DNA from: Acidimicrobiales bacterium
Lineage (GTDB): Bacteria; Actinomycetota; Acidimicrobiia; Acidimicrobiales; SZUA-35
Reading direction: 5' to 3'
Length of the DNA: 35,023 nt
NCBI GenBank assembly: GCA_024644005.1
Contig: JAHELU010000019.1
Coordinates: 1 to 35,023, forward strand
Shown here in pieces: positions 9,576 to 15,761 of the stretch. Numbering within the stretch: position 1 is the first letter of the stretch; each line of letters begins with the position of its first letter. The translations under genes were made by a program, and so were the position numbers. The notes below the pieces were generated by a model that was not told where the DNA came from, ran no database searches, and saw only the letters and a list, made by a program, of their open reading frames with translations.

Positions 9576-10391
9576 ATGTCCCGCAACGTCACCCCCCGCC
9601 CTGTGGAGATGGCTCGCGCCGCGCTCGTTGCGGTCGCCGTCGCGACTGCGCTGCTGCTGTCCGCCGTCGTGTCAGCGACGCCCGCCGGTGCGGCGGTCCG
9701 AGAGGACGGGGCCGCCCCGTCCACCGGAGCCGCTGGCTTCACCGGAGCGGCCAGCTCGGCCAACGCACGCTTCGTCGTCGACGGGTACCGCCAGCTGCTG
9801 GGTCGGACCGCCGACGAGGCAGGCGTCGACTTCCACCTCGACAGGCTCATCGCAGGAGGCGACCGCACCCGCCACGCCTTCACCTACGCCATGCTGTTCG
9901 GGACCGAGGGATCACGTCAGGAGGTCAGGCGGGCCTACGACGATCTGCTCGGCCGGCCGGTGGACGCCGCCGGGGATGCCTACTGGACCGCCCACCTCCA
10001 GGGTCGTGGTGTGCTCGACCTGCGGGTCCTGCTGATGGCCAGCGACGAGTATCGCAACCGAGCCGGGGGCACCGACAGCACCTGGTTGGAGGCGCTGTAC
10101 CACGACATCCTCGGCCGCCCCTCTGACGAAGCGGGGCGCCGGTACTGGCTTGCGCTGACCGAGGCCGGCGTGGCCCGACCCCTGATCGTGGCGGGGATCT
10201 ACCTCAGCGACGAGGCGCTCGGTCGCCGGGCCGACACCTATTATCTGGAAGCGCTCGGTCGTCACCCGGGCGAAGCCGAACGTCGAGGGGCCGTCGAGAT
10301 CATCCGACGGACAGGGGAACGGGGTCTGCGGGCCAGGATCTGGGCCTCCGACGAGGTCTTCGAGCGGTACCTGCAGGCGGCCCTCTCGTGA
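9576..10391 (+). CDS. Exported DUF4214-domain protein
   Basis: A 271-residue protein with an N-terminal signal sequence (hydrophobic ARAALVAVAVATALLLSAVV, cleavage likely near ATPAGA) and then four copies of the DUF4214-type repeat. The copies begin at YRQLLGR, YDDLLGR, YHDILGR and YLEALGR, and the first three continue with a D-E/A-x-G-x-x-x(Y/F)-W/H pattern. DUF4214 occurs in large secreted or S-layer-associated proteins, and its precise role is unknown. A GGGAGGGGG run directly abuts the ATG; a second in-frame ATG at 9609 is possible. The stop overlaps the next gene's GTG (GTGA), so this is probably the first gene of the MauE/MauD-like operon. Confidence 0.85.
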   Translation: MSRNVTPRPVEMARAALVAVAVATALLLSAVVSATPAGAAVREDGAAPSTGAAGFTGAASSANARFVVDGYRQLLGRTADEAGVDFHLDRLIAGGDRTRHAFTYAMLFGTEGSRQEVRRAYDDLLGRPVDAAGDAYWTAHLQGRGVLDLRVLLMASDEYRNRAGGTDSTWLEALYHDILGRPSDEAGRRYWLALTEAGVARPLIVAGIYLSDEALGRRADTYYLEALGRHPGEAERRGAVEIIRRTGERGLRARIWASDEVFERYLQAALS

Positions 10392-11026
10392 GTGGGTCAG
10401 CGCTCGCCACGACGGTTCTGTCGGCCGGCATCGAGCCGAGGACGATCGGCGGCGCCGGGATGGCCACGATGGCGGCCGTGCTGCTGGCCGCCGTGTTCGC
10501 CGTCGCGGCGGTGACCAAGGCGATCGCTCCGGCCGCCACCGCTGCGGAGCTCGCCGACCTCGGCCTGCCGGCCCCTGGGCTGCTGGCCCGGGTCGTGCCC
10601 CCGAGCGAGCTGGCCATCGCTGTTGGCCTGCTGATCGCGCCACGGGTCGGCGCGATGGCGGCCGGGCTGGCCCTGTCCGCCTTCACCGCGGTCCTGATCG
10701 CCACGATCCGCTCCGGTCGAGTCGTGTCCTGCGGGTGCCTCGGCTCGTTGAGCCGGCAACCGGTGTCGTCGGCCACGGTGGTCCGCAATCTCTGCCTGCT
10801 CGCCATGGCCGGTGCCGTCGCCACGACCACGAGCCTCTCGGTCCCCGACGTCGAGTCGGTCGTGGTCGCGACGCTGCTGGTCCTGGTGGCCCTGATCGCC
10901 TCGCAGCTGCTCGCCATGTTCAAGGCCACCGGCCGGATCTGGTCGGTGGAGCTGGCGGGCGAGACCGGGCCGACGGCTCACCGCAATCCGGCTACACGCT
11001 TCTCGGACGAAGGGATGATGACATGA
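10388..11026 (+). CDS. MauE/DoxX-like redox-associated membrane protein
   Basis: A 212-residue integral membrane protein with about four or five hydrophobic helices. It carries AAVFAVAAVTKAIAPAA and ADLGLPAP stretches typical of the MauE/DoxX family, and a cytoplasm/membrane-boundary Cys pair in VSCGCLGSL followed by RNLCLLAMA. MauE is needed with MauD for disulfide formation in the methylamine dehydrogenase light chain. Here the neighbours are a MauD-like thioredoxin (ATGA overlap downstream) and a Cys-rich exported protein, so a role in disulfide chemistry of that protein is likely. The GTG start overlaps the stop of the DUF4214 gene. Confidence 0.8.
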   Translation: MSGSALATTVLSAGIEPRTIGGAGMATMAAVLLAAVFAVAAVTKAIAPAATAAELADLGLPAPGLLARVVPPSELAIAVGLLIAPRVGAMAAGLALSAFTAVLIATIRSGRVVSCGCLGSLSRQPVSSATVVRNLCLLAMAGAVATTTSLSVPDVESVVVATLLVLVALIASQLLAMFKATGRIWSVELAGETGPTAHRNPATRFSDEGMMT

Positions 11027-11520
11027 CCGGCCTCTGGATGGTCTCGTACCTGCTGCTGTGGCTCACCGTGCTGCTGCTCGGCTTCGCAGTGGTGGCACTG
11101 CTTCGCCAGATCGGCGTGCTGCACACCAGGATCGCCCCGATGGGCATCCACTTCGCGGGCGAGGGCCCGGAGCTCGACTCGCCGGCCCCGGCCGTCGAGT
11201 CGGTCGACTACACCGCATCGCCGTTCACGCTGCTGGCGTTCACGTCGCCGACCTGTGAGATCTGTGCCAAGCTCGCACCGGCCCTCGAGCGGTTGAGCCG
11301 GAGCTATGACGAGATCGAACTCCGGATCCTCGACCACCGGACAGAGGCTCGGTCGTTCTCGGACTTCCGGGTCCGCTCGACCCCCTACCTCATCGCCGTC
11401 GATGCCGACGGCCTCGTCCGGAGCCGGGGGGTGGCCAACACCCTCGATCAGGTCGAGGAGATGCTGGCCGAGATCCTGGTCGACGGCACCGCGGATGCTC
11501 CGGAGCTCGCGCGCCGATGA
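11023..11520 (+). CDS. MauD-like membrane-anchored thioredoxin
   Basis: A 165-residue protein with one N-terminal transmembrane anchor (SYLLLWLTVLLLGFAVVALLRQIG) followed by an extracytoplasmic thioredoxin-like domain. The active-site motif is CEIC in SPTCEICAKLAPAL (CxxC), and a cis-Pro region reads RSTPYLIAVDADG. The architecture equals MauD, which acts with MauE in making the disulfides of the methylamine dehydrogenase light chain. Start at ATG 11023 is fixed by a four-base ATGA overlap with the upstream MauE-like gene; the stop overlaps the ATG of the next gene in the same way. The likely partner is the 12-cysteine protein encoded next. Confidence 0.88.
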   Translation: MTGLWMVSYLLLWLTVLLLGFAVVALLRQIGVLHTRIAPMGIHFAGEGPELDSPAPAVESVDYTASPFTLLAFTSPTCEICAKLAPALERLSRSYDEIELRILDHRTEARSFSDFRVRSTPYLIAVDADGLVRSRGVANTLDQVEEMLAEILVDGTADAPELARR

Positions 11521-12935
11521 CCGCAGCAACCGATACCGGCCTCGACGCCGCGATGGAGCGGCTGGGACGGTGGACCGCAGCCAGGACCACCCGCCGGTCC
11601 TTCCTCCACCGCATCGGACAGCTCGCGGTCTTCGTGGCCGCTGGGCCGACCATCGCCAGCCTGTTGATCCGGGATGCCGAGGCCAGGGTCTGCGGTCAGA
11701 GCGGCGTGACCCCGAAGTGCGACACGTTCGACTGCACCGGACCCGGCGACGTCTGGGGCTGGTGCTGGTACGCCAGCGACGGCTGCTGCCGGAACGACGG
11801 GCTGAAGAAGATCTGCGACTGCTGCACCGTCGACTACCCGAACGTCCACGGCTACTGCCCGAGCGGCACGAACGTGCGGTGCATCGTGGAGAGCTGTGGC
11901 AACGATCCCCGGGTCCTCAACGTGGCGCTCACCCCGGTGCTTTGGGCCGGGGCCACCGGCTACCATCACGCAGCGATCGGGGCCGGGCACGCCATCGCCA
12001 ATCGGGCGGTGGTGGCCGATGACCACGATCGCTGGCTGCAGTACGTGGCGGCCCCGCTGGCCGGTGCCCTCGGGGTCCCGCTGCTCGGCATCGGTGCAAA
12101 CGGACCGACCGGCACCGACCTGGAGCTGCTGGAGGAGCTCGGCGTGTCCGAGGTCATGGCCGTCGGTCCGGTCAACGGCACCGCGACCCTGACCGCGGCC
12201 GGGATCACCGTGGACCAGGTGACCTCCGGGACCGACCTCGCGGCGATCAGCCAGCAGGTAGCGGCCCGGATCACGACCGTGAACGACATCAACCGCACGG
12301 TCACGGTCGAGCCGGCCGGCCTCTCCGCCGAAGCGGCGCCGGCAGCTGCGGCGTTCGCTGCGCTCGGCGGGTTCCCACTGGTGATCGGCTCTGCGGCGGC
12401 AGCCGCGGTCGGCTATCCGACGCTCTACGTCGGGCCGGAGCCAACCGATGTGTCACTGATCAGCGACCGGACGTCGGCCGGTTCGCTGGTCGAGCTGTCG
12501 ATCGAGCTGGCAGACCTGGCGGCGGCCCTCCCCCATGTCTCACCCCATCGGATCGCCATCGTGCCGGCCGGCAGCTCCGATGCGGTCGGGCTGGTGAACC
12601 TCGGGGTCCCGATCGTGCTCCACCCACTCGACCGGCTCGGTCCGCTGGAGGGGTGGATCCAGGATCACTCGGTCCGTTACGGGGAGCTGAGCGAGATCTA
12701 CTACACCCGGGGCCCGGGCCAGCTCCTGACCGAGGAGTACTGGAAGCTCCAGGCGGCGGCCAACGGCTTCCGGGTCGATCAGCTGCAGGGGGTGGCGGGG
12801 CAGGGTCTGCCGGTGATCCGCCAACCGCTGGCCGAGCGGCCGGTCGGCAAGGCCCGCACGGACGGCGCCCTCGACTGGGGCAGTCAGAGCCCACCGAACT
12901 ACTGGACCACCCAGGGCCAGGCATTCCGGCGATGA
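11517..12935 (+). CDS. Tat-exported 12-Cys protein: MADH light-chain-like domain plus CWB2-like domain
   Basis: A 472-residue protein. A twin-arginine signal (RTTRRSFLHRIG, Arg 26-27, then a hydrophobic stretch) leads into a cysteine-rich domain with 12 Cys between residues 59 and 127, including WGWCWYASDGCC, ICDCC and YCPSGTN. The number of cysteines, the W-x-C-x-x-x-DG spacing and the CPxGT motif resemble the methylamine dehydrogenase light chain, though the domain is much shorter and a tryptophan tryptophylquinone cofactor is not supported. From about residue 137 a region with AAPLAG, LLEELGVSEVMAVGPV and QQVAARI resembles cell-wall-binding repeat 2 domains. The gene overlaps both neighbours by ATGA. 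The upstream MauE/MauD-like proteins probably handle its disulfides. Its function is unknown. Confidence 0.7.
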   Translation: MTAATDTGLDAAMERLGRWTAARTTRRSFLHRIGQLAVFVAAGPTIASLLIRDAEARVCGQSGVTPKCDTFDCTGPGDVWGWCWYASDGCCRNDGLKKICDCCTVDYPNVHGYCPSGTNVRCIVESCGNDPRVLNVALTPVLWAGATGYHHAAIGAGHAIANRAVVADDHDRWLQYVAAPLAGALGVPLLGIGANGPTGTDLELLEELGVSEVMAVGPVNGTATLTAAGITVDQVTSGTDLAAISQQVAARITTVNDINRTVTVEPAGLSAEAAPAAAAFAALGGFPLVIGSAAAAAVGYPTLYVGPEPTDVSLISDRTSAGSLVELSIELADLAAALPHVSPHRIAIVPAGSSDAVGLVNLGVPIVLHPLDRLGPLEGWIQDHSVRYGELSEIYYTRGPGQLLTEEYWKLQAAANGFRVDQLQGVAGQGLPVIRQPLAERPVGKARTDGALDWGSQSPPNYWTTQGQAFRR

Positions 12936-14368
12936 GCTCGTCGCTCGTGCTGCTGCTCGGCGTGGCCAGCCTTGCCGCGGTCCACACCCTCTGGTCGCCC
13001 TGAGGTCTCTCGGTCGCCGAGACCCTCGTGCCCTCGGTCCGGGGGCGAGCACAGCTGACGGTCGCTTCCTGCCTCGTCGGGGCTGGAACGGCCTCCGGCG
13101 GGCTGGCCGGCCTGGCCGGTGCGGTGGTACTGGCGCCGCTCCGGCCCGTGCCGAGCCCGCTGGCGGTGGTACTGGTGGCGGTGGTGATCGGCGCCTCCCT
13201 CGATCGTCTGCACCTGCTGGTCGGCCGTCCCCATCCGCTGACATCGGGTCACCAGGTCCCTCGGGAGTGGGGGCGGCTGTTCGGTCCCCACACCGTGGCC
13301 CTGCTGTACGGGGCCAGGCTCGGCGTCGGCCCGCTGACCATCCTGTCGACCTGGACGTGGTGGTCGGTCACCCTGGCATCGGCCCTCGTCGGCCCGATCA
13401 CCGCCGTCACGGTCGGGGCCGTGTTCGGCTTCGTCCGGCTGCTGGTGACGGTGGCAGTCTCGGCCGTCGTCTCGGTCGGCCGGGCCGGCCGACGCCGTGA
13501 CCACGCGGCGTGGTTCCGATGGGTCCGGGCCCGGCAGCGGTCGAACTGGCGGGTACTGAACGGCATCGGCGTGGCAATGGCCGTAGCCGTCTTCGCCGCC
13601 GGCTGCGGTGCCGGCCCCGGCGCCGACGATCGAGGGCTCGACGTGACGACAGCGTCGAGCTCGACCATACCGTCGACCACTCCTCCGACGTCGCATTCGA
13701 CATCGCCTTCGACATCGCCCCAGCCGAGGGCAACGACGCCGGCCACGCCAGCTCAAACCGGCAACGAATCGATCATCCCCGTGAGACTGGAGGACGTTGT
13801 GCGAACAGCCACCACCGAAGCGACCGAGCGCCCCCGGGCCAGGACCTGGAGCAGCGAGCCCGAGGCCCTGGCGGCCGCGCTGACCGCCAGCATCGACGGT
13901 TACGAGCCCATCGGCGAACCGGGTGCCGACCGCCACCTCGACCTGCAGGCTGCGGCCGAGCTCCAGCCCGATCCGACCGAGGAGGTGGCGCTGCTGGAGA
14001 CCAGGGGCTTCGAGGGCGGCTGGACCCGGGCGTTCCGCAACGAGCACAACGACGTGGCGGTGGTCTCGGTGTACCAGTTCGACGACCCGGCCGAGGCCGA
14101 GTTCTACCTCGAGGACGGGCTGATCACGATCGGCGGCTACGGGGGTAAGTTCTTCGACATCGCCGACTTGCCGGGGGTGCGAGGGTTCGTGCAGTACTTC
14201 AGCGAGACCGACGAGGGCGGCACCGAGGACCTCGTCTCTCTTGGCGCGGCATTCCAGACCGGTCCCCGTTGGTACCTGGTCTATTTCGTCGGCTCCACCG
14301 AGACGGTCACCCCGGAAGTGCTCGTGCCCACTGTCGCCGCCCAGCGCCAAGCGGCCGGGGACTACTGA
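12932..14368 (+). CDS. CcdA/MauF-like membrane protein with in-frame TGA at a conserved Cys position (candidate selenoprotein)
   Basis: The ATG at 12932 overlaps the previous stop (ATGA). The frame runs 23 codons as a hydrophobic helix (LVLLLGVASLAAVHTLWSP), meets TGA at 13001-13003 and continues in frame as GLSVAETLVPS to a stop at 14366-14368, 478 residues in all. Related actinobacterial proteins carry Cys here (LWSPCGLS), corresponding to the redox Cys of the first helix in CcdA/MauF-type thiol-disulfide transporters. TGA therefore probably encodes selenocysteine; two hairpins follow it at once. The rest has about five more helices with QVPREWGR and ALLYGARLG. A lipobox-like VFAAGC (Cys about residue 225), a Ser/Thr/Pro linker and an extracytoplasmic domain then follow. 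Without recoding only a 23-residue peptide, or a version restarted at GTG 13028, would be made. Confidence 0.7.
13004..13049 (+). promoter_or_regulatory. Candidate bacterial SECIS: two consecutive stem-loops after the TGA
   Basis: Immediately after the TGA, 13004-13024 folds with GGTCTC/GAGACC ends; an alternative inner 5-bp CTCGG/CCGAG stem is possible. Directly following, CTCGTGCCC (13025-13033) pairs with GGGGGCGAG (13041-13049) with one G-G mismatch and one G-U pair. The 7-base loop TCGGTCC contains GGTC, as does the apical loop of the E. coli fdhF SECIS. The second loop lies 30 bases from the TGA, within the usual bacterial range. Function is inferred. Confidence 0.5.
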
Positions 14369-14614: not shown

Positions 14615-14971
14615 ATGCACGAGCTGTCGCTGTGCGGCGCGATCGCCGAAACCGCCCTCGAACACGCCGCGGGCCGGCCGATCGAGCGCATCCGGCTGCG
14701 GATCGGCCACTTTCGCCAGGTGGTGCCGGAGACGCTGCAGTTCTGCTGGGAGGTCCGGGTCGACGGCACCGCCCTCGAAGGTTGCGCGCTCGATGTCGAC
14801 TATGTCGCCGCCCAGGTGTCGTGCAACGGCTGCCGCTCGACCACGACGCTGGAGCACCCGCTGCTGCTGTGCGGCTCCTGCGGCGGCGCCGATGTGACGA
14901 TGACCAGCGGTGACGAGTTCCTGATCGAGTCGATCGAGGTCGGATCGGCGCGTGCGAAGCAGGTCCGCTGA
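14615..14971 (+). CDS. hypA: Hydrogenase maturation nickel metallochaperone HypA
   Basis: A 118-residue HypA. It starts MHELSLC, where the N-terminal Met-His-Glu forms the nickel site, and has the structural zinc site as two CxxC motifs (Cys 70/73 in SCNGC and Cys 86/89 in LLCGSC). HypA works with HypB to insert nickel into [NiFe] hydrogenase large subunits and, in some organisms, urease. GGAGG and GAGGG lie upstream of the ATG. The stop is one base from the HypB start. No hydrogenase structural gene is in this window, so the client enzyme is unseen. Confidence 0.95.
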   Translation: MHELSLCGAIAETALEHAAGRPIERIRLRIGHFRQVVPETLQFCWEVRVDGTALEGCALDVDYVAAQVSCNGCRSTTTLEHPLLLCGSCGGADVTMTSGDEFLIESIEVGSARAKQVR

Positions 14972-14972
14972 C

Positions 14973-15761
14973 ATGGGCCGATTCCATCATCACACCGACG
15001 GCGACGGCCACCAGGATCACGGCCACCACGATCACGGCCACCACGATCGGACCGACGGCGAGCACGATCACCATGGCCTCGGTGACCACAGCGGCTACGA
15101 GACCGGCACCGAGCGGATCATGGTGCTGGAGCAGATCCTCGGCGAGAACGACCGGATCGCCGCCGCCAACAGGGCCGAGCTGGCGGCGAGCGGGATCCGC
15201 TCGGTCAACCTGATGTCGTCCCCGGGTGCGGGCAAGACCACGCTGCTCGCCAAGACGATCCCGGCGCTGGCCGGACGGCTCCGGGTGGGTGTGCTGGAGG
15301 GCGATATCGCCACCAGCCTCGACGCCGACGAGCTGGCCGGGCTCGGGGCCCAGGTGGCGCTGGTGAACACGAGCGCCGGATTCGGTGGCGAGTGCCATCT
15401 CGATGCGGTGATGGTCCGGGCCGGCCTCGACCGACTGGTCCTGGCCGACATCGACCTGCTGCTGATCGAGAACGTCGGCAACCTCGTCTGCCCTGCCGAG
15501 TTCGACGTCGGCCAGGACCGGCGGGCCATGGTCTACGCCATCACCGAGGGCGAGGACAAGCCGCTCAAGTATCCGGTGATGTTCCGGGCCGCCGACGTGG
15601 TCGTTGTGAACAAGCTCGACCTCCTCCCCCATCTCCGGTTCGATCTCGACGAGTTCCATCGCAACCTGACCGAGGTCAACCCCGAGGCCACCGTGGTCGA
15701 GCTCAGCGCCGAGACCGGCGAGGGCCTCGACCGGTGGCTCCACTGGCTGCAGTCGGTCTAG
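14973..15761 (+). CDS. hypB: Hydrogenase maturation GTPase HypB with His-rich N-terminus
   Basis: A 262-residue SIMIBI-class GTPase. Residues 5-39 are a histidine/aspartate-rich nickel-storage stretch (HHH, GHHDHGHHD, HDHH). The G domain has the P-loop SSPGAGKTT (about 82-90), the GECHLDA metal site at the dimer interface, ENVGNLVCPAEFD and NKLDLL for guanine recognition. It delivers nickel with HypA, spending GTP. The ATG at 14973 follows the hypA stop by one base; an upstream in-frame ATG lies inside hypA and lacks the family start. HypB with a His-rich tail can also store nickel or zinc. Confidence 0.95.
   Translation: MGRFHHHTDGDGHQDHGHHDHGHHDRTDGEHDHHGLGDHSGYETGTERIMVLEQILGENDRIAAANRAELAASGIRSVNLMSSPGAGKTTLLAKTIPALAGRLRVGVLEGDIATSLDADELAGLGAQVALVNTSAGFGGECHLDAVMVRAGLDRLVLADIDLLLIENVGNLVCPAEFDVGQDRRAMVYAITEGEDKPLKYPVMFRAADVVVVNKLDLLPHLRFDLDEFHRNLTEVNPEATVVELSAETGEGLDRWLHWLQSV

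Follow-up and report, generated by a model that had tools for sequence, protein, structure and literature searches.

The 35,023-nt stretch of DNA analysed here (the window), which is contig JAHELU010000019.1 of an Acidimicrobiales bacterium (assembly GCA_024644005.1), carries an operon with the gene order mauE, mauD-like, mauA-like, and mauF, and the last of these genes, which is interrupted by a single in-frame TGA, very probably encodes a selenocysteine (Sec) form of the membrane protein MauF. The frame extends on the forward strand from ATG at 12932 to the terminal TGA at 14366–14368, and its sole internal stop is the TGA at 13001–13003, which is codon 24; the translated frame reads MSSSLVLLLGVASLAAVHTLWSP-TGA-GLSVAETLVPSVRGR..., and its start overlaps the stop of the preceding gene (11517–12935) in the ATGA at 12932–12935. 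A preliminary description of this DNA, made from the letters alone, had proposed both the frame with its single TGA and the start set by the overlap, and re-reading confirmed them. The residues around the codon are HTLWSP-TGA-GLSVAET, which with Sec inserted would give LWSP-U-GLSVAETLVPSVR, and the first hydrophobic stretch ends at the Sec position (WSP-U-G). Elsewhere TGA serves as an ordinary stop, terminating the mauF gene itself, the gene that precedes it, and the downstream hypA.

The site alternates between TGA and Cys codons in homologous genes. In the window's own genome and a sample of relatives (148 genomes; 45 matched in a full-protein search), the close loci that can be aligned at the site carry TGA in 25 of 25 cases (24 distinct, the window included), and distant relatives (23–25% identity) carry TGC or TGT in L050–L053 and TGA in L054. 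With a 29-row alignment as the query, 95 of 395 genomes in the class sample and 63 of 396 in the phylum sample proved to contain the family, and the site-covering matches in the relatives, class, and phylum samples comprise 184 loci with a residue in the column, corresponding to 163 distinct 63-mers. The aligned codon in these 163 sequences is TGA in 123, TGC in 28, and TGT in 12, with no other codon, and the Pro before and the Gly after the site are invariant (163/163). Thirteen further matches from the class and phylum samples are partial: ten miss the column by their reported ranges, and three, which lie outside the counts above, agree with them (TGC in L217 and L218, TGA in L219). The family matches L036, L038, and L046 are without the Sec/Cys column. 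The LWSP-TGA-GLS context with Cys in related proteins, which had been stated from family knowledge, is thus borne out by the 40 sequences with TGC or TGT at exactly this codon, and a column that holds only TGA or Cys codons likewise upholds the earlier argument that the TGA is not a random nonsense hit.

When the sequences are grouped by their downstream motif (by regular expression), the first group, to which the window belongs, has 26 Sec and no Cys forms, the second 76 and 35, and the third 19 and 5, with two Sec sequences outside all three groups; the two distant groups, second and third, therefore each contain both forms. A FastTree tree, for which the column was masked, requires five Sec/Cys changes, compared with 36 when the labels are shuffled, and at least two of them are forced by well-supported branches. 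Two genomes hold two family members each, both with TGA in G183 (L140 and L179) and one with TGA and one with Cys in G473 (L157 and L176). A sequencing error as the source of the TGA is very unlikely and was rejected, because the TGA form recurs in many separate assemblies, including three that consist of a single contig (G597, G695, and G536).

The TGA is accompanied by a predicted hairpin of the bacterial selenocysteine insertion sequence (SECIS) type. The bacterial SECIS model, as given in section 5 of PMC13188914, has a loop of 3–9 nt and a stem of 4–16 bp, lies 16–37 nt past the UGA, and calls for a G within the first two loop positions and an energy of −7.5 kcal/mol or lower. In our own implementation of this model, which considers ungapped hairpins, the window hairpin stands at the expected place and fits the model at −11.5 kcal/mol (Table 1); the model is satisfied by 112 of the 123 TGA forms versus 6 of the 40 Cys forms (Fisher 1.7e-19), and the best loop starts at 33 nt in 86 of the 123 TGA forms. 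The selD gene of the same genome has a hairpin loop, GUU, at the same distance past its own TGA. The mean hairpin energy of the TGA forms is −11.2 kcal/mol, compared with −5.2 kcal/mol after random synonymous recoding, while the corresponding values for the Cys forms are −3.7 and −3.5 kcal/mol. The seven pairs from 30–46 to 36–40 (gapless set) are formed in 85.5% of TGA cells, in 53.9% of Cys cells, and in 42–58% when the pairing is slid by 1–4. Compensatory changes are evident at three pairs, where G-C and C-G are both common: pair 33–43 is G-C in 59 and C-G in 43; pair 34–42 is C-G in 58, G-C in 18, T-A or T-G in 25, and an unpaired G-G in 19; and pair 36–40 is C-G in 74 and G-C in 28. When two alternative registers are counted, the hairpin is kept in 116 of 123 TGA forms and in 3 of 40 Cys forms, and it is formed over different amino acid sequences in different groups (for example, VPSVRGR, HPLGERA, SPVGEAS, and TPVVHGG).

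The full set of Sec machinery is present in the genome, whose 4.46-Mb assembly (83% complete) consists of 314 contigs, the window being contig 122. The tRNA-Sec scores 66.4 bits (cut-off 47) and is called by ARAGORN as tRNA-SeC with anticodon tca (UCA); selA (408.1 bits) and selB (274.9 bits) are adjacent on contig 286; and selD (364.7 bits) itself contains one in-frame TGA, reading GAG-U-ACK (L014:1531–1533). The class sample has selA in 260 of its 395 genomes. In a comparison that ignores relatedness between genomes, selA accompanies the TGA form in 53 of 58 genomes and Cys forms alone in 11 of 33 (Fisher 9.5e-9); these counts cover 91 of the 95 family genomes, and G473, which has both forms, was placed under TGA. 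Among the five TGA genomes without selA, a tRNA-Sec of 66–68 bits is present in G055, G087, and G310, and one of 47.4 bits, just above the cut-off, in G432. The candidate selenoprotein reading put forward in the preliminary description is supported by the codon alternation, the Sec machinery, and the SECIS hairpin alike, all of which, like the MauF homology and the operon, are established by sequence comparison.

The window protein has no Pfam match, neither to PF02683 nor to PF13386, and in NCBIfam it has only a chance match far below the cut-off. However, MauF of Paracoccus denitrificans PD1222 (WP_011750949.1) scores 129.4 bits over residues 59–262 against the hidden Markov model (HMM) of the 163-row family, and an hhalign comparison of the same protein with A3 gives a probability of 98.4% and an E-value of 4.9e-15, with its STWSPCGYS aligned on the Sec site. 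By these matches, the window gene is mauF itself and not a generic CcdA. MauF has a role in the biogenesis of methylamine dehydrogenase, and we know of no description of its biochemistry. The preliminary description had called the protein CcdA/MauF-like with the redox Cys of CcdA/DsbD transporters; the MauF part of this assignment held, but the CcdA/DsbD analogy, which suggests a pair of redox Cys residues, is weaker, as no second conserved Cys appears in the 163 sequences: over the domain, in rows that end 190 residues past the Sec, Cys occurs in at most 11 of 162 rows of any other column. The C-terminal extension that follows the MauF domain is missing or encoded apart in some relatives, as in L058, where it is a separate open reading frame (ORF), and in 19 of 24 first-group rows the two parts meet at a lipobox-like motif ([LVIAFTMG][AGST][GA]C). 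The C-terminal half of the window protein, 13604–14365, starts at the lipobox-like Cys, and the fused protein may be cleaved into a membrane protein and a lipoprotein.

The genes upstream of mauF correspond to the MauE/MauD-like operon that had been described, with a mauA-like gene in addition (Table 1). The mauD-like gene was scanned as 10735–11517 for TIGR02661. All three genes lie upstream in 11 of 12 long-flank first-group loci (L049 and L055–L065), L061 being without a mauE match, and of the 26 first-group rows that have a flank at all, 23 show a mauA-like match ahead of mauF. Of the 24 third-group rows, 21 have mauD upstream of mauF and 19 have a short mauA-like gene there. One Sec-type protein (L186:1477–2712) has MauF fused to MauE (PF07291, 80.4 bits).

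Table 1. Positions of the mauF gene, its Sec-related elements, and the upstream mau genes in the window
Feature	Position	Strand	Evidence
mauE (MauE/DoxX membrane protein, CGC motif)	10388–11026	+	Pfam PF07291, 76.7 bits
mauD-like gene (N-terminal hydrophobic stretch and thioredoxin domain, CEIC)	11023–11520	+	TIGR02661, 69.7 bits (below cut-off of 188.6); PF00085, 29.8 bits
mauA-like gene (twin-arginine translocation (Tat)-type leader, Cys-rich domain, extra C-terminal ~340 aa)	11517–12935	+	TIGR02659, E 4.2e-5, 23.5 bits (cut-off 196.85)
Candidate Sec-MauF gene (residues ~1–200, MauF-type membrane domain; ~225–478, lipoprotein-like extension)	12932–14368	+	Family HMM versus P. denitrificans MauF, 129.4 bits
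Predicted Sec codon 24 (TGA, LWSP-U-GLS)	13001–13003	+	TGA or Cys codon in 163/163 distinct family sequences
Predicted bacterial SECIS hairpin (8-bp stem, apical loop GUC at 13037–13039, 33 nt past the TGA)	13029–13047	+	Model constraints as given in section 5 of PMC13188914
Cys of lipobox-like FAAGC motif (residue 225), between MauF domain and C-terminal extension	13604–13606	+	Motif regular expression

The leader of the mauA-like protein aligns with P. denitrificans MauA (hhalign probability 95, 40 columns), and nine Cys residues are invariant in 16 rows of mauA-like proteins. The mauA-like protein of the window is without PF02975 and as a whole matches no Pfam family, and a profile search of the PDB with it gave no match. 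A tryptophan-derived cofactor needs two Trp residues. Outside the leader, the seven third-group rows have a single Trp in common (GGGW), which, together with the absence of PF02975 from the window's mauA-like protein, makes such a cofactor unlikely in the mauA-like proteins. MauE has been speculated to help disulfide formation in the beta subunit of methylamine dehydrogenase, according to PMC7794033. A search for mauB in 10 genomes gave no match and is uninformative because the controls were silent too. On plasmids, a search with one second-group protein gave no match, and of the regions around a mauE match, that of Curtobacterium is without a gene named mauF and that of Streptomyces without annotation. 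Around the operon, hypA and hypB directly follow the mauF gene (14615–15761), and a protein with three DUF4214 matches is encoded just upstream of mauE (9576–10391).

We consider it highly probable that the gene encodes a selenocysteine-containing MauF whose TGA is decoded via the SECIS, the protein most likely acting with MauE and MauD on the disulfides of the MauA-like protein; the actual insertion of Sec and all of the biochemistry are what we infer from the sequence comparison. SelB and the Sec-tRNA (UCA) would decode the UGA at 13001–13003 as Sec, directed by an mRNA hairpin whose apical loop comes 33 nt after the codon. The Sec would take the place of the one Cys that is conserved throughout the family domain, and its selenol would most likely work within the membrane as a thiol/selenol relay of a single residue, exchanging with MauD, which is thioredoxin-like, at its CxxC and with MauE at its CxC. 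The outcome would be the formation or rearrangement of disulfides in the product of the operon's mauA-like gene, a Cys-rich protein with a Tat-type leader.

Several observations weigh against this assignment. For the hairpin, the per-sequence p-values in the recoding comparison are modest (0.05 or lower in 45 of 123, median 0.069), 11 of the 123 TGA forms lie above the −7.5 kcal/mol threshold, with L040 and L045 weak in the window's own group, and six Cys forms satisfy the threshold. RNAalifold recovers seven pairs with little covariation in the 24 close loci, a weak consensus that is attributed to a protein that hardly varies there and that made the wider set necessary. As for the machinery, the tRNA-Sec family is also above the cut-off in 5 of 14 control genomes, selA is present in 11 of 33 Cys-form genomes, and G443, a TGA-form genome that is 68% complete, has neither selA nor a tRNA-Sec above the cut-off. 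An AlphaFold2 model, made for the window protein and L049 only, has a mean pLDDT (predicted local distance difference test) of 47 and is unusable. The single-Cys claim comes from rows that end 190 residues past the Sec, and first-group proteins keep a Cys at residue 225. Finally, mau neighbours are few in the second group, the largest with 111 rows, whose flanks are mostly 1.5 kb: there are 13 mauD-like matches, three mauE matches, and no mauA-like match, most of them weak.

The last of these points favours the alternative that survives best, namely that the Sec serves another substrate, such as peroxide or a metal, and not the disulfides of a MauA-like protein. The recurrence of mauA-like genes upstream of mauF in the first and third groups and of mauD in the third, as well as the MauF–MauE fusion, argue against it, and we regard it as unlikely, with perhaps one chance in several of being correct. 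Slightly less probable is the possibility that Sec is inserted as proposed but that the protein is a two-residue electron transporter of the CcdA/DsbD type and not a one-selenol MauF relay. Among 18 members searched at E ≤ 1, PF13386 (DsbD_2) was matched in three and PF02683 (DsbD_TM) in two; only L207 exceeds the curated cut-off (PF13386, 41.8 bits, E 1.4e-10), and L108 falls just under it for both models (PF02683, E 3.8e-6; PF13386, E 4e-5). The matches of these two Sec members support CcdA/DsbD as distant kin, the only PDB alignment of a family profile is a weak one with the solved CcdA 5vkv (E 0.76), and the Cys at residue 225 of the window protein, kept in the first group just past the domain, could be the second residue. 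Against this possibility, the 163 sequences have neither a second Cys nor a second Sec conserved over the domain; a partner, MauE or MauD, could supply the second residue, so that electron transfer as such remains compatible with the sequences.

The two alternatives that deny Sec insertion fare far worse. Reading of the TGA as Cys or Trp through ordinary suppression or a changed code would suit a family residue that is Cys in 40 of 163 sequences, but it is very improbable given the Sec machinery in the genome, the hairpin that accompanies TGA far more often than Cys, and the association of the TGA form with selA, and a global code change is rejected because the gene and its neighbours themselves terminate in TGA. 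Least probable of all is that the TGA is a true stop or a nonsense mutation, leaving either a pseudogene or a working protein that starts at GTG 13028 without the first helix: a GTG-initiated ORF of 446 aa does exist there, but the nonsense mutation is rejected since the residues preceding the TGA are conserved as protein up to the invariant adjoining Pro, TGA swaps only with Cys codons, and the frames downstream are intact in relatives, in which the decay that had been named as a refutation was looked for and not seen.

What is new in the selenocysteine MauF is the selenocysteine version, as the MauF family itself is already known. The expectation that such a Sec transporter would be undescribed agrees with the sources consulted: no report of a Sec form of MauF or CcdA was found in the open-access literature searched, which excludes most subscription papers and all preprints; Table 1 of PMC13188914 (119 selenoprotein families, May 2026) lists nothing of MauF or CcdA type and comes closest with TsoB; and no selenoprotein or MauF model of NCBIfam (June 2026) matched the 18 members at E ≤ 1. 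With 123 distinct Sec sequences, a widespread candidate family would be added to the bacterial selenoproteome, whose genes are likely annotated as fragments or pseudogenes because the UGA is read as a stop. The site points to one catalytic residue in MauF, the natural Sec/Cys alternation offers a direct test of the contribution of selenium to membrane thiol chemistry, and the co-varying hairpin provides a motif for finding more selenoproteins in these genomes. A broader proposal, to which we give even chances, sees MauF as a large selenoprotein family in the phylum of the window that has so far escaped the catalogues. One selenol within the membrane, with no resolving Cys in the same protein, would act together with MauE and MauD to form or exchange disulfides, and the Mau apparatus would serve exported Cys-rich proteins in general as a maturation system dependent on selenium, methylamine dehydrogenase being one client.

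Several known systems resemble the selenocysteine MauF in part. TsoB (NF045694), a rhodanese/DsbD fusion-like selenoprotein, has Sec in a DsbD-like context, judging by the name it carries in the catalogue table of PMC13188914, but it differs in having two Sec residues (UxxxxU) and a rhodanese part, and the 18 family members have no NF045694 match in NCBIfam at E ≤ 1. SelD of the same genome, in its Sec form, is an unrelated enzyme that has an in-frame TGA and a hairpin loop 33 nt downstream alike. The CcdA/DsbD membrane domains (PF02683 and PF13386) are probable distant relatives of the MauF family; these transporters have a pair of conserved membrane Cys residues, but the second redox Cys of CcdA has no conserved counterpart over the MauF-family domain in rows that end 190 residues past the Sec. 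The closest comparison is with P. denitrificans PD1222, whose mau operon has the order mauF-mauB-mauE-mauD-mauA and shares mauE, mauD, and mauA with the window. Its MauF is homologous over the domain and has the WSP-C-G, QVP, and YGxxLG positions in common with the window family, but Cys stands at its site, its operon includes mauB, and it lacks a C-terminal extension, whereas the window has a predicted Sec at the same position and a mauA-like gene without PF02975.

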